Shown in pieces: positions 5,352 through 47,488 of a stretch of DNA of 64,000 nt. Origin of the DNA: Dichotomicrobium thermohalophilum. GTDB lineage: Bacteria; Pseudomonadota; Alphaproteobacteria; Rhizobiales; Rhodomicrobiaceae. A model generated the notes under the pieces. It ran no database searches. It was not told the DNA's origin and was given only the letters and a program-made list of their open reading frames with translations. The stretch's first letter is position 1. Every line of letters starts with the position of its first letter. Where the stretch lies: the NCBI RefSeq assembly GCF_003550175.1, contig NZ_QXDF01000001.1, positions 1,388,501 to 1,452,500 of the forward strand, written 5' to 3'. A program made the translations under genes and the position numbers.

Positions 5352-6638
5352 TCAGCGCGGCGCCGGTTCGCTCGGTCCGTAGACCATGCGCGAGCGGATG
5401 GTGCCCTCGAGGCTGCGCAACTGGGCGAGAAGATCGGCCGCGATGTCTTCCTTCACTTCGGCGTCCAGCACAACATAGCCCAGTTCGCCCTCGGTTTGCA
5501 GGTACTGAGCGGTGATGTTGACATCCCGCGCGCCGAAGGCGTCGTTGAGCCGGCGCATCATGCCGGGGATGTTGTGGTGGATGTGGATGAAGCGCTTGGA
5601 CTTGGCCGCGGCCACCGGCAGCTGCACCTGCGGGAAGTTCACTGCGCCAGTGGTCGAGCCGACATCGGAATACTCGATAAGCTTGCGCGACACCTCGGTG
5701 CCAATGCGCTCCTGCGCCTCTTCCGTGGAGCCGCCGACATGCGGGGTGAGGATCACGTTGTCCAGACCACGCAGGGGAGAAATGAACTCTTCCTCGTTGG
5801 AGGACGGCTCTGACGGGAACACGTCGATCGCTGCACCGCGCAGATGCCCGTCCTTAAGCGCCCGCGCGAGCGCTTCGATGTCCACGAGCGTGCCGCGCGC
5901 GTTATTGATGAGGAAGGCGCCGGGTTTCATCGCGCGGATTTCGCGCTCACCGATGATGCCCTTCGTCTGCGGCGTTTCGGGCAGGTGAAGTGAGACCACG
6001 TCGGAGCGCTGCAGCAGGTCCATGAGATCATCGGCGGCGGTGACGTTGCCGTGGCGCAGCTTCTCGGTCTGGTCATGGAAGATCACGCTCATACCCATGA
6101 CCTCGGCCAGATTGGCGAGCTGCGTGCCGATGTTGCCGTAGCCCACAATGCCGAGCGTGCGTCCGCGAATCTCGTGGCTGTCCTTGGCGGATTTCTGCCA
6201 GATGCCCTCATGGGCGGCCATCGAGCGTGGGAAAATGCGCCGGAACAGCATGATGATCTCGGCGATGGTCAGTTCGGCCACGCTGCGGGTGTTGGAGAAT
6301 GGCGCGTTGAACACTGGGACGCCCTTGGTGCTCGCGGCGCCGAGGTCGACCTGGTTGGTGCCGACCGAAAAGCAGCCGACGGCAATCAGCCGCGGCGCAG
6401 CCTCGAAGATGTCGGCGGTCAGCCGCGTGCGCGAGCGGATCCCGAGCATGCGCACGCCGTCTTGCAAACGTTCTTTCAGTTCTTCCGGGCCAAGCGCCGT
6501 CTTCAGGCGTGTGACATTCGTGTATCCATCAGCATGCAGCGCTTCAACGGCCGTGTCCGCGATCCCTTCAAGGAGCAGAATCGGCGTCTCGCTCTTGGAC
6601 AGCGCCAGATGCTGTGCGTGTGAGAGTTCCTTCGTCAT
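5352..6638 (-). CDS. serA: D-3-phosphoglycerate dehydrogenase (E. coli-type, ACT domain)
   Basis: A 428-residue enzyme catalysing the first step of serine synthesis, 3-phosphoglycerate to 3-phosphohydroxypyruvate with NAD. The catalytic and cofactor segments are GCFSVGTNQVDL, FNAPFSNTRSVAELTI, the NAD-binding LGIVGYGNIGTQLANLAE and the active-site tail LTPHVGGSTEEAQ. The C-terminal ACT domain (HIHHNIPGMMRRLN, ITAQYLQTEGELGYVVLD) is the serine-feedback site. The overall match is to the short E. coli SerA class (410 residues), not the long class with an extra ASB domain. ATG 6638 is chosen; the only upstream in-frame start is a TTG at 6653. Confidence 0.95.
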   Translation of the reverse strand: MTKELSHAQHLALSKSETPILLLEGIADTAVEALHADGYTNVTRLKTALGPEELKERLQDGVRMLGIRSRTRLTADIFEAAPRLIAVGCFSVGTNQVDLGAASTKGVPVFNAPFSNTRSVAELTIAEIIMLFRRIFPRSMAAHEGIWQKSAKDSHEIRGRTLGIVGYGNIGTQLANLAEVMGMSVIFHDQTEKLRHGNVTAADDLMDLLQRSDVVSLHLPETPQTKGIIGEREIRAMKPGAFLINNARGTLVDIEALARALKDGHLRGAAIDVFPSEPSSNEEEFISPLRGLDNVILTPHVGGSTEEAQERIGTEVSRKLIEYSDVGSTTGAVNFPQVQLPVAAAKSKRFIHIHHNIPGMMRRLNDAFGARDVNITAQYLQTEGELGYVVLDAEVKEDIAADLLAQLRSLEGTIRSRMVYGPSEPAPR

Positions 6639-6992
6639 GTCTTTCCATTGCAAAATTCTTGGTTCAGACGTGGCGTAAGGTTTGAACGCATGCTGGCGCC
6701 GAGGTCAAGCTGCGGCGGGACGCCACACCCCTTGACAGGCAGGTCCAAGCGCCCGCGGGAGCAGAGGCGAGCGGTTCCGATTTTTCACGCTGTGACAGGC
6801 GGCTGGCAGAGTGTTAATGTTCCTCGTCGCAGCCCGAAAGACGCACAAAATCACCATATTCCCTGTGTTCCTTGGTCGCTGATTGTGCGTGATTCTGCGC
6901 GTCGTCGGCTGGTCAGCGGTGCGCCAGCGGCGACAGATGTCGGCGAATTTTGCACGGCGCCACGCGGAGCGCCGTTAGGAAAGGTGGCTCAC
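6639..6992. other. 354-base divergent intergenic region, serA / bamD
   Basis: It separates the start of serA (-) from the start of bamD (+), so it should hold promoters for both. I see no convincing gene or palindromic operator. A TTGACA at 6732-6737 lacks a good -10 at 17 bases. The codons in frame with bamD upstream of 6993 do not resemble a protein. Confidence 0.4.
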
Positions 6993-44300: not shown

Positions 44301-45716
44301 ATGAGGACGCCGACGGCAAAAGGCGGGTTTTTCGCGAGCCTGCGGCAAATCCGGGGCGCAACACTCATCGCGGCGGCAGGTGCCGGGCTGGCACTGTATC
44401 TGCTGGTGCTCTCCCTGGGTGACGGGACAGGCGCCGATCAGCTGAAGACCTGGGCGCTCCTGGTCCTGGCGATCAGCCTTTTCGCCACGCATGTTCTGCC
44501 TGAGCATGTTACCGCGCTCACGGTGTTTCTGCTTGCCTTGCTGGGCGACATTGCTCCGGCTGACGTTGTCTTTTCCGGCTTCGAGGTCGGCGCGCTCTGG
44601 CTGCTGTTCTCCGGAATCATCATTGGCGCGGCGGCGCAGGAAGCCGGTCTCGGAGCCTTTATTGCCAGGCGCATCCTGAGCCTGTGGCGCATGACCTATA
44701 CGCGTGCGGTCGTTCTCCTGATTGTCATCGCACTGGTCCTCGGCCTGATCGTCCCGGCGACCATCCCGCGGATCATCCTGCTGATGCCGGTGGCGCTCGG
44801 CTTGGCCGAAGCAATGGGCTTTGAGGAAGGTGGCAAAGGGTACACAGGACTGGCGCTTGCCGCCGGGCTGGGCACGTTTCTGCCCACTTTCGCTGTCGTC
44901 ACGGCCAATCTGCCGGCCGTGGTGCATGTTGGGGTGATTGAGTCAGTCTACGGCATCAAGGTGTCGTACGCCGAGTTCCTCATTTATCAGCTTCCGGCCG
45001 TCGGCATTTTGCGGGCCGTGGTGCTGATGGCCCTCCTGCTCCTCCTGTTCTCGCAGCCTGGTCAGCCTGTCACCGAAACCAGCCGCGAGCGGATGACCCT
45101 GCGCCAATTCCGGCTGTCGATCGTGCTTTTTGGCGCGATCATCTTCTGGGCAACCGACGTGTTCCACGGCATCCATCCCGCCTGGATCGCCATGGCCGCT
45201 GCGGTGGTGATCCTTTGGCCGTCATCGCGGCTCATCAGCCCGACCGCGTTCCGGGAGAAGATTGACCTCGCGCCCGTGCTCTACGTCGCCAGCCTTCTGA
45301 GCATTGGCGCGATCATGATCAACAATGGGCTTGATGCGGAACTGGGCGATTTCATCCTCGGCTTCGTGAGTTTCAGCCCCGATAGTCAGTTGATCAATCT
45401 GTACTTGTTGACCGTCCTGTCCCAGCTCGTCTGCCTGATTTCGACCACGCCGGCCGCGCCGATCCTGCTGGTCCCGATTGCGGGGGAGCTGGGGCAGGCA
45501 TCCGAGATTCCCCTTATGGGCGTGCTGATGGCCCAGCTTGTGGGCTTTTCCTCGGCGCTGCTGCCATACCAGGCGCCGCCGCTGATCGTCCTGCTGAGCC
45601 TGTGCAAGGTGCGGTTCCGGGACGTTGTGAAGGTTATAATGCTGGTTGCGCTGGCGACGCTTTTCCTCGGCGTGCCCGTAGCGTATCTGTGGTGGGGCTC
45701 GCTCGGGCTTCTCTGA
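44301..45716 (+). CDS. SLC13/DASS-type permease
   Basis: A 471-residue inner-membrane transporter with about 12 hydrophobic segments, of the ion-transporter superfamily that includes SLC13 dicarboxylate/sulfate carriers and ArsB/NhaD. Recognisable parts are ISLFATHVLPEHVTALTVFLLA (as in DASS proteins), GALWLLFSGIIIGAAAQEAGLG, VPATIPRIILLMPVALGLA (equivalent to the SNT-type substrate loop region) and SLLSIGAIMINNGLDAELGD. The usual SNT/SNTA signature is altered to PATIPR and STTPAAP, so substrate prediction is unsafe. The ribosome site before ATG 44301 is poor. Confidence 0.8.
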   Translation: MRTPTAKGGFFASLRQIRGATLIAAAGAGLALYLLVLSLGDGTGADQLKTWALLVLAISLFATHVLPEHVTALTVFLLALLGDIAPADVVFSGFEVGALWLLFSGIIIGAAAQEAGLGAFIARRILSLWRMTYTRAVVLLIVIALVLGLIVPATIPRIILLMPVALGLAEAMGFEEGGKGYTGLALAAGLGTFLPTFAVVTANLPAVVHVGVIESVYGIKVSYAEFLIYQLPAVGILRAVVLMALLLLLFSQPGQPVTETSRERMTLRQFRLSIVLFGAIIFWATDVFHGIHPAWIAMAAAVVILWPSSRLISPTAFREKIDLAPVLYVASLLSIGAIMINNGLDAELGDFILGFVSFSPDSQLINLYLLTVLSQLVCLISTTPAAPILLVPIAGELGQASEIPLMGVLMAQLVGFSSALLPYQAPPLIVLLSLCKVRFRDVVKVIMLVALATLFLGVPVAYLWWGSLGLL

Positions 45717-45736
45717 GCAGGGCGGTGGAGGCGGAC

Positions 45737-45771
45737 AAAAAAAGCGGGCCGTCCGGCGAACGAACGGCCCG
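45737..45771 (-). terminator. Intrinsic terminator of the sRNA candidate
   Basis: Perfect 8-bp GC stem, 11-base loop and seven U residues, active only on the minus strand because no T-run follows the stem on the plus strand. No minus-strand protein gene ends here, which itself argues for a noncoding transcript. Confidence 0.85.
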
Positions 45772-45812
45772 AGTCTAGGGAGGAAACGCCCAAGGAGGGC
45801 ACGCGACAGCGA
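45737..45812 (-). ncRNA. Candidate suhB/MmgR (alpha-r8) family small RNA
   Basis: On the minus strand a short RNA can be read ending in a strong intrinsic terminator: CGGGCCGT and ACGGCCCG form a perfect 8-bp stem (45764-45771 with 45745-45752), followed by GCTTTTTTT. Just upstream is the single-stranded motif UUUCCUCCCU (45786-45777), preceded by a small hairpin GCCC-UCCUU-GGGC (45800-45788) with an anti-Shine-Dalgarno loop. As I recall, these are the hallmarks of the alphaproteobacterial suhB/MmgR (Rfam suhB) sRNA, usually near suhB-like genes; here an inositol-monophosphatase-family gene starts at 46008. The 5' end is an estimate. Confidence 0.7.
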
Positions 45813-46007
45813 TCTCTCGATCTTGCCGCGCTGCACAAAAATGGCATTGCGGCGCACAAAATTCAAGGGAATTCGGGACCGCGCATAACTGCTATGATAG
45901 CTAGCCCTTGAACTTCGCACCTGCAAGATGGGACTGGCGCGGCAGTTTCGCGCAGCTTAATGAAAATTCCGTTTTAAAGTGACGCAGTTACCGAGATCGG
46001 GGAAACC

Positions 46008-46814
46008 ATGCCGCCGACTTCTGCCGCTCAAACCACCGAGTTTGCCGCCTTCGCTCACGCGTTGGCGGATGCTTCGCGCGCGGTGATCGCGCCGCTCTTC
46101 CGTCGCGCCACGGCCAACGACAAGAGCGGCGGCGGCCCTTTCGACCCTGTCACAGAGGCAGATCGCGGTGCCGAGCGCAAGCTGCGCGAGTTGATCGGGG
46201 CGGCCTATCCCGACCACGGCATTGTTGGGGAGGAGTACGGCGCGCACAACCCGGACGCGGCGCACTGCTGGGTGATCGACCCGATTGACGGCACACGCGC
46301 CTTCATCGCCGGGCTGCCGGTCTGGGGCACGCTTATCGGGCTGATGGCCGAGGGGCGGCCGCTGATCGGCTTGATGGACCAGCCTTTCACGCGCGAACGC
46401 TTCTGGAGCGACGGCGCGGGCGCCTTCTATCGGCTGGGCGACGGGCCCACCGAGCGGATGAGCACGAGGGGCTGCGCGCGGCTGGAGAATGCCGTTCTCG
46501 CCTGCACGACCCCGGAAATGTTTCGCACCAATGAGGAGCAGGCCGGCTTTGCTGCCATGCAGGCGCGGGCGCGGCTGACCCGCTTCGGCGGCGACTGCTA
46601 CAACTACTGCATGCTGGCAATGGGGCTGATCGACGTCGTGGTGGAGGCGCAGCTCAAGAGCTTCGACATCGTCGCGCTGACGCCGATCATCGAGGCGGCG
46701 GGCGGGCGTGTCAGCACCTGGGAAGGCGGCGCACCGGCCGAGGGCGGGCGGATCGTCGCGGCCGCGAATCCGGCGCTTCACGCGGCGGCGCTGGAGGTGT
46801 TGCAGGCCGCCTAG
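46008..46814 (+). CDS. hisN: Histidinol-phosphatase (inositol monophosphatase family)
   Basis: A 268-residue Mg-dependent phosphatase of the inositol monophosphatase family. Metal-binding motifs are GIVGEEYG (Glu75/Glu76), DPIDGTRAFI (91-100) and near the C-terminus LKSFDIVALTPIIEAAGG. The sequence FDPVTEADRGAERKLRELI and RAFIAGLPVWGTLIGLM fits the HisN group, which dephosphorylates histidinol phosphate, better than SuhB, but substrate assignment by sequence alone is imperfect. Its stop TAG shares CTAG (46811-46814) with the stop of the convergent aldolase gene. The sRNA candidate lies just upstream on the opposite strand. Confidence 0.88.
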   Translation: MPPTSAAQTTEFAAFAHALADASRAVIAPLFRRATANDKSGGGPFDPVTEADRGAERKLRELIGAAYPDHGIVGEEYGAHNPDAAHCWVIDPIDGTRAFIAGLPVWGTLIGLMAEGRPLIGLMDQPFTRERFWSDGAGAFYRLGDGPTERMSTRGCARLENAVLACTTPEMFRTNEEQAGFAAMQARARLTRFGGDCYNYCMLAMGLIDVVVEAQLKSFDIVALTPIIEAAGGRVSTWEGGAPAEGGRIVAAANPALHAAALEVLQAA

Positions 46815-47488
46815 TCCGGCTTGCCGTAGGTCTCGAACTTCGCAAGCACCTCGGCCATCTGCGCGTCGTCGAGAAGATGCACCTCGCCGAGTTTGAGCAC
46901 TTCGAGATATTGCGCGGCCAGATTCTCCACTTCTCCGGCCAACTCCAGCGCGGCGTCGAGGTCGGAGGCGGCTGCGATCTGTCCGTGATTGGCGAGCAGG
47001 CACGCCTTGCGCGCGGACAGCGCCTCGGCCGCGTGTGCCGCAAGCTCTTCGGTGCCGAAAGTTGCATAGGCCGCCACCGGGATGTCCGTGCCGCCGGCGA
47101 CTGCGACCATGTAATGAAACGCCGGGATCGGGCGGCGCGCACAAGCCAGCGCCGTGGCGCAGCGCGAATGGCAGTGGACGATCGCGCTGGCGTCGGGCCG
47201 GGCCTGATAGGCGGCCTGGTGAAAGCGCCACTCGCTTGAGGGCTTGCCGCCCCTGGGTGTGCCGTCTGCATCCACGTAGACGATGTCATCCGGCTCCAGC
47301 GTTTCATAGGCTGCCCCGGAAGGCGTGATGAGCATTCCGTCGCCCCAGCGCGCTGAGACATTGCCCGAGCGTCCGTGGCTCAGTCCGGATGCACTCATGC
47401 GCCTGGCGATTTCGACGATATCCGCCCGCAAACCCCCCTTGTGGGTGGGATGCCTGATGACGGCGAACAGCTTTCTGGCTCGGGCCAT
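46811..47488 (-). CDS. Class II aldolase/adducin family protein
   Basis: A 225-residue zinc-dependent aldolase-type protein (fuculose-phosphate aldolase superfamily). Motifs seen are HGRSGNVSAR near residue 38, the substrate and zinc region SSEWRFHQAAYQARPDASAIVHCHSR (His-x-His), and the later LLANHGQIAA, which supplies the third zinc His. The catalytic Glu is expected in SSEW. The length and motifs match L-fuculose-phosphate or methylthioribulose-phosphate dehydratase relatives; the substrate is open. AGAGGCGCGGC precedes ATG 47488. Confidence 0.88.
   Translation of the reverse strand: MARARKLFAVIRHPTHKGGLRADIVEIARRMSASGLSHGRSGNVSARWGDGMLITPSGAAYETLEPDDIVYVDADGTPRGGKPSSEWRFHQAAYQARPDASAIVHCHSRCATALACARRPIPAFHYMVAVAGGTDIPVAAYATFGTEELAAHAAEALSARKACLLANHGQIAAASDLDAALELAGEVENLAAQYLEVLKLGEVHLLDDAQMAEVLAKFETYGKPD

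Follow-up and report, generated by a model that had tools for sequence, protein, structure and literature searches.

The stretch between two plus-strand protein genes, one for a transporter and one for a protein of the inositol-monophosphatase family, raises the question of which RNA is encoded on its minus strand and which regulator controls it. Scanning of the window (the whole stretch of DNA analysed, 64 kb) with Rfam covariance models revealed a match to RF00519 (suhB/MmgR, alpha-r8) on the minus strand at 45731-45807, covering model positions 1-77 of 77 with a score of 60.7 bits against a gathering score of 41 (cmscan; E 5.1e-10). A first-pass annotation had assigned the stretch to this family and named the RF00519 model as the check; the score is well over threshold, and the stretch is confirmed as an ordinary single-copy member of the suhB/MmgR (alpha-r8) family. 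The annotation had placed the element at 45737-45812, which is the correct locus with limits that differ from those of the match. RF00519 was the sole Rfam family above its gathering score within the window. The cuckoo/CcsR RNAs are likewise anti-Shine-Dalgarno sRNAs; the Rfam scan, which reported RF00519 alone over its cut-off, retained only the best among overlapping clan members. A search of all 2,988,045 bases of the genome (99.84% complete) with RF00519 found no second alpha-r8 copy at E <= 0.001. The RNAs SisA-D of Caulobacter crescentus have the same 10-mer and hairpin type as the window copy; they are four in number, against a single copy here, and in Caulobacter a sponge, CrfA, acts on SisA (PMC12559287).

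Anatomy and position of the RNA gene

A 10-mer and a hairpin are the traits of alpha-r8 RNAs (PMC12559287). Both had been described in the first-pass annotation, and our analysis found them, TTTCCTCCCT and GCCC-TCCTT-GGGC, on the minus strand as described. The seed 10-mer UUUCCUCCCU (45777-45786, minus strand) is unpaired in the predicted fold and lies, as is typical of alpha-r8, single-stranded on the 3' side of a weak hairpin. This hairpin, GCCC-UCCUU-GGGC (45788-45800, minus strand), was identified from the RF00519 alignment and the fold, and has an anti-Shine-Dalgarno loop. An intrinsic terminator stem-loop (45745-45771, minus strand) has 11 pairs, nine of them G-C, and is followed by CTTTTTTTGT, the T run being at 45743-45737. 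Its position agrees with the RNA 3' end, and it represents the Rho-independent terminator characteristic of alpha-r8. No protein gene appears to be served by this terminator, as the annotation had claimed: the transporter gene next to it is on the opposite strand and stops at 45716.

The full transcript is predicted at 45738-45830 on the minus strand (about 92 nt). Its start (+/-3) was inferred from placement of the -35 and -10 elements by eye and from the 13-nt spacing between PhaR site and transcription start in S. meliloti (PMC12542648, Table 3), and the transcript probably runs from about 45830 to 45738, with its 5' end some 23 nt beyond the RF00519 match. Folding of 45831-45738 (94 nt) gave, in 5' to 3' order, a first hairpin, the GCCC-UCCUU-GGGC stem-loop, the seed in an unpaired stretch and the terminator, at -46.9 kcal/mol, where shuffles averaged -34.5 (z -3.5; 1 of 200 shuffles as good). 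The 5' hairpin SL1 (GCGCGGCA ... UGUCGCGU; 45801-45831, minus strand) of this minimum free energy fold falls outside the paired portion of RF00519 according to the model's structure line; the fold suggests that this third hairpin is probably present in the RNA. The window copy shares with RF00519 the full-length covariance match, the 10-mer, the short hairpin and the terminator, and nothing sets it apart from the family, the probable 5' hairpin being unpaired in the model.

A core-motif search of loci found with RF00519 yielded 186 alpha-r8 copies from 152 genomes among the matches listed over cut-off; four loci (L249, L298, L305 and L320) had no core motif and were left out. The 10-mer UUUCCUCCCU was identical in 174 of these 186 listed copies, a count biased upward because copies were collected partly by motif and strong matches were favoured. 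The four pairs of the short hairpin were canonical in 158, 146, 151 and 121 of the 186 listed copies, and the pair changes include CG to TG and GC to AT. Upstream of the core, a recurrent GGCGATTGGCGT(C/T)GC hairpin was observed by eye at seven loci (L038, L039, L052, L060, L072, L097 and L148). It corresponds to the alpha-r8 5' stem-loop in Microvirga and Xanthobacter (and L148), and these hairpins are more alike than a spacer hairpin would require.

Analysis of the neighbours identified the divergent gene (46008-46814, plus strand; TIGR02067, PF00459) as hisN, for a histidinol phosphatase of the inositol-monophosphatase family. The annotation had labelled it HisN/SuhB; the HisN part holds (TIGR02067 311 bits, cut-off 275) and the inositol-1-monophosphatase part does not (equivalog model 74.6 bits, cut-off 332). 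The convergent neighbour (44301-45716, plus strand) encodes a DASS/citrate-type anion transporter, with PF03600 and PF00939 over cut-off and TIGR00785 at 102 bits, under its cut-off of 198.6. Beyond hisN, a class II aldolase gene (46811-47488, minus strand) converges with it, the 3' ends overlapping at 46811-46814.

Corbino et al. (2005, PMC1273637) first came upon the suhB element in A. tumefaciens, in front of a single COG0483-type gene, and the divergent arrangement from hisN is the one in which the family was first noticed; the annotation had pointed to the neighbouring gene as the kind of setting from which the family was named. The window copy has in common with the A. tumefaciens element the divergence from a COG0483-type gene, a putative promoter and a terminator (PMC1273637), and differs from it in that the neighbour is HisN by a curated model. 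In most species an alpha-r8 copy adjoins an N-formylglutamate amidohydrolase gene (PMC12559287). Among the matches listed, 81 of 292 loci, that of the window included, have a hisN relative, and the window locus alone among these 292 has a DASS transporter. All 32 copies with hisN in the locus, among 185 listed copies, are divergent from it.

The adjacent hisN gene, and an early view of the element as a leader of suhB (PMC1273637), favour a cis-acting or antisense element for hisN over a free RNA. We consider this extremely unlikely, as the element is on the opposite strand, has its own terminator and lies clear of the reading frame of hisN. Corbino et al. rejected that reading; they describe the element as more likely an opposite-strand RNA with a putative promoter and terminator, and as having no tie to particular neighbours (PMC1273637). 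Furthermore, for 153 of the 185 listed copies the fetched locus, mostly ~1.5 kb on each side, contains no match to hisN. A free RNA, with which the layout of the locus agrees, is the reading favoured here.

PhaR-type sites in the promoter and in the genome

Two promoter elements were placed by eye on the minus strand, 17 nt apart: a -35-like TTGAAT (45861-45866), resembling the CTTGA(C/T) upstream of other alpha-r8 copies, and a -10-like CATTTT (45838-45843), resembling CATATT and similar elements in other copies. A simple sigma-70 pattern scan found no promoter at the locus. This result, together with the poor -10 element, would fit a decayed or silent, untranscribed copy. Such a copy is very unlikely in our judgement, since seed, hairpin and terminator are intact, the copy is the sole one found in the genome and, by eye, the -35/-10 layout is like that of other copies.

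PhaR is a protein sensor of the storage polymer PHB. PhaR-type sites, which the first-pass annotation had not mentioned, were identified in this promoter. Site A, TGCGGCGCACAA (45848-45859, plus strand), lies between the -35 and -10 elements and agrees without mismatch with TGCRNYGCASMA, a consensus for PhaR drawn from footprinting in B. diazoefficiens (PMC6201568). This pattern occurs at three places in the window against 1.16 expected, and the match alone is therefore unremarkable. A PhaR matrix was built from 24 EMSA-supported S. meliloti sites (PMC12542648, Table 3), with the site of mmgR itself excluded; at its threshold of 16.2, leave-one-out testing recovers 19 of the 24 sites used for training. 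The best matrix places in the 64 kb are 45821-45841 (20.7), 6638-6658 (11.6) and 45842-45862 (10.5). The first of these is site B, TTTTTGTGCAGCGCGGCAAGA (minus strand), which lies over the -10/start region and has one mismatch to the B. diazoefficiens 12-mer. Sites A and B, 21 bp apart, are thus the third- and first-best places in the window; only site B is above threshold, site A scoring 10.5. Because site B overlaps the 5' arm of SL1, part of its dyad could stem from RNA structure. The S. meliloti mmgR site scores 21.6 on the same matrix and ends 13 nt before the start site (PMC12542648, Table 3); the matrix span of site A ends at 45842, and a further 13 nt gives a start near 45829, consistent with the -10 element. 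With the -35 and -10 elements placed by eye, the window copy appears to share with S. meliloti MmgR, a member of the same family, a PhaR-type site between them (PMC12542648, PMC8401924), and differs from it in a second, higher-scoring dyad over the start region.

The genome of the window contains phaR (PF07879, 107 bits), two PhaC_N places, five Phasin_2 places and Hfq (113 bits). Upstream of a phasin pair (C1:540298-541093) the matrix scores 26.6, 22.2 and 15.2, which serves as an in-genome check that the S. meliloti matrix transfers to this genome. The 26.6 and 22.2 sites are 18 bp apart, like the two listed phaP1 sites of S. meliloti (PMC12542648). These sites lie at 1224-1308 of L324 (about 540.0-540.1 kb of C1), and the promoter is the highest-scoring of its kind among the loci of this genome that were scanned. 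At the other three phasin places the matrix maxima were only 6.7, 6.4 and 7.7, so that sites precede two of the five places, which form one pair. The phaR locus reached a maximum of 10.2 on the PhaR matrix and the two phaC loci 14.9 and 0.6. Exact TGCRNYGCACAA occurs at eight places in the genome against three for the reversed control; among them is one upstream of the phasin pair and another upstream of the sRNA. The PhaR-type boxes, together with the phaR, phaC and phasin genes, indirectly support a carbon-storage link of the RNA.

PhaR of S. meliloti binds the promoters of mmgR, phaP1 and phaP2, that of mmgR efficiently in EMSA; it represses phasins, and loss of PhaR raises MmgR (PMC12542648). 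In B. diazoefficiens, PHB abolished PhaR binding in vitro (PMC6201568). MmgR restricts PHB as well as phasin protein, perhaps indirectly (PMC8401924, PMC7143759), and in S. meliloti its induction on nitrogen limitation is NtrC-dependent (PMC7143759). The alpha-r8 RNA SisA pairs through its 10-mer with mRNA 5' regions and represses them, acting as an anti-Shine-Dalgarno RNA (PMC12559287).

Overall, our analysis points, with a probability of about 0.78, to a trans-acting, Hfq-type alpha-r8 anti-Shine-Dalgarno sRNA that is repressed by PhaR, released on PHB accumulation and made together with phasins. Its expression, binding by PhaR, dependence on Hfq and direction of regulation would be as in its relatives. 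PhaR would repress the promoter by binding one dyad or both in the stretch from the -35 element to the start; accumulating PHB would draw PhaR off the DNA, and the RNA would then be made alongside the phasins. The exposed UUUCCUCCCU would pair with mRNA Shine-Dalgarno regions and lower translation, and the RNA may in this way be the RNA arm of the PHB response. By analogy with its relatives, each of these steps beyond the DNA sites themselves is proposed as a model.

PhaR-type sites before alpha-r8 genes across Alphaproteobacteria

RF00519 matches at E <= 0.001 were found in 171 genomes of a class sample of 289 (completeness >= 90%), 135 of them passing the cut-off. Within the window's order 37 of 41 genomes matched, a count that includes its own genome, and 32 passed. 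Fetched copies are the matches listed over the family cut-off in the order and class samples, weak copies being missing. One of the 186 copies had too little upstream DNA, and 185, including that of the window, were tested with the matrix in the region 15-105 nt upstream of the core at the threshold of 16.2. At least 120 loci (L032-L151) were scanned for promoter motifs and searched for neighbours, outside the matrix test.

Among the matches listed, a PhaR-type site at threshold precedes 74 of the 185 alpha-r8 copies, and the remaining 111 have no upstream site at threshold. At the same threshold, sites turned up in 7 of 3700 dinucleotide shuffles and, as further controls, in 6 of 184 stretches farther upstream and 6 of 185 downstream ones. 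Counted by genome, 69 of 151 have a site at threshold among the matches listed; counted by class-sample genus with a fetched copy, 42 of 85 have one at threshold and 58 of 85 one of at least 10 bits, again among the matches listed. Paired sites of at least 8 bits tend to be spaced by 19-21 bp (42 of 64 pairs, among the matches listed). The 111 copies without a site at threshold speak against a general link, as do the four Caulobacter copies, sisA-D, for which no common upstream motif is reported (PMC12559287).

Comparison of copies with and without hisN bears on the reading that the RNA is of the alpha-r8 family and the dyads bind another regulator or serve hisN, with PHB uninvolved here. One intergenic stretch is common to hisN and the RNA, the 32 hisN-locus copies are without exception divergent, and a site at threshold occurs in 17 of these 32 against 57 of the 153 copies without hisN (among the matches listed), all of which would suit a site that serves hisN. 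Nevertheless we regard this reading as unlikely. The 57 copies that carry a site at threshold without hisN indicate that the PhaR-type site is independent of that gene, and 98 of the 153 have a site of at least 10 bits (among the matches listed). The matrix, built from S. meliloti sites minus that of mmgR, detects one phasin promoter of the window's own genome, and S. meliloti mmgR itself is positive in EMSA (PMC12542648). The PhaR-repressed sRNA is thus retained as the preferred reading.

The joint occurrence of alpha-r8 and phaR in the 289 genomes was also counted: 147 have both, 24 alpha-r8 only, 35 phaR only and 83 neither (Fisher p 7e-23, with kinship ignored). Among the matches listed, a site at threshold was found in 52 of 114 phaR-positive genomes with a fetched copy against 0 of 8 phaR-negative ones, and one of these 8 has a site of 8 to 14 bits. 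The tracking of phaR presence by site presence was set aside as evidence, being confounded by ancestry: no member reaches threshold in the five families that hold both phaR-negative and phaR-positive genomes with a fetched copy, and two genomes with fragmented assemblies (G189 and G213) keep site-like sequence without a phaR match.

PhaR control of one alpha-r8 member, S. meliloti mmgR, is already published (PMC12542648), and the mmgR promoter has been noted to contain a conserved motif of dyadic form (PMC8401924). The literature searched yielded no survey of PhaR sites upstream of alpha-r8 genes at the level of the class; since Lagares 2016 and Ceizel Borella 2018 were outside the reach of that search, no priority is claimed. 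Taken alone, the RNA adds a further member to an already large family. The promoter survey takes the PhaR-mmgR link of one rhizobium to a testable prediction for 42 of 85 class-sample genera (among the matches listed), and offers an explanation of the family's role in carbon storage. The predicted promoter sites suggest a coupling of this RNA to stored carbon that extends beyond the rhizobia, in which it was discovered. We lean slightly towards the wider view that PhaR control of alpha-r8 is an old alphaproteobacterial circuit and not a rhizobial peculiarity, with one or two dyads, often two helical turns apart, an RNA co-induced with phasins, and a storage polymer that would, by way of a single anti-Shine-Dalgarno RNA, control translation from many mRNAs.

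Two further observations were made in the survey. Tandem alpha-r8 copies a few hundred bases apart occur at L011, L017 and L148 and among the matches of G257 and G176; at L011 and L017 the PhaR-type 12-mer is present at only one of the two tandem copies. An RF00519 match was also found in Thermus composti, a control that is not an alphaproteobacterium, the cut-off being passed in one of two matching controls; this match is probably due to chance or contamination.

Genes preceded by the seed complement

The exact seed complement AGGGAGGAAA occurs at 16 places in the genome, one of them the sRNA itself, against one place for the reversed control. At 11 of the other 15 places, a frame of 130 amino acids or longer opens immediately downstream; L157 has a possible start, and L154, L161 and L165 have no frame or a short one only. 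Pfam analysis of ten of these genes identified a B12-binding protein, a [2Fe-2S] protein, two periplasmic binding proteins, a DsbD-type protein, a thioredoxin-like protein, a flavocytochrome c sulfide dehydrogenase, a DUF2147 protein, a rhodanese and a glucose/sorbosone dehydrogenase. They are not claimed as targets, because AG precedes 16 of 124 GGAGGAAA places (7.75 expected at one in 16 with equal bases, a figure to be read with the caution that purines may be favoured) and AGGGAGGAAA may be merely a strong ribosome site. Phasins were set aside as direct targets, since the start regions of the phasin pair have no full seed complement and direct phasin repression is thus unsupported here.

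In eight relatives the 11-mer AGGGAGGAAAC was found at seven places outside alpha-r8, and by eye no gene was common to these places and the list from the window's genome. The congeners G004 and G005 have one AGGGAGGAAAC gene in common. In the window's genome, AGGGAGGAAA stands before the DsbD-type, thioredoxin-like, flavocytochrome c sulfide dehydrogenase and rhodanese genes (L158, L159, L160 and L164), and the organism may oxidise sulfur compounds.
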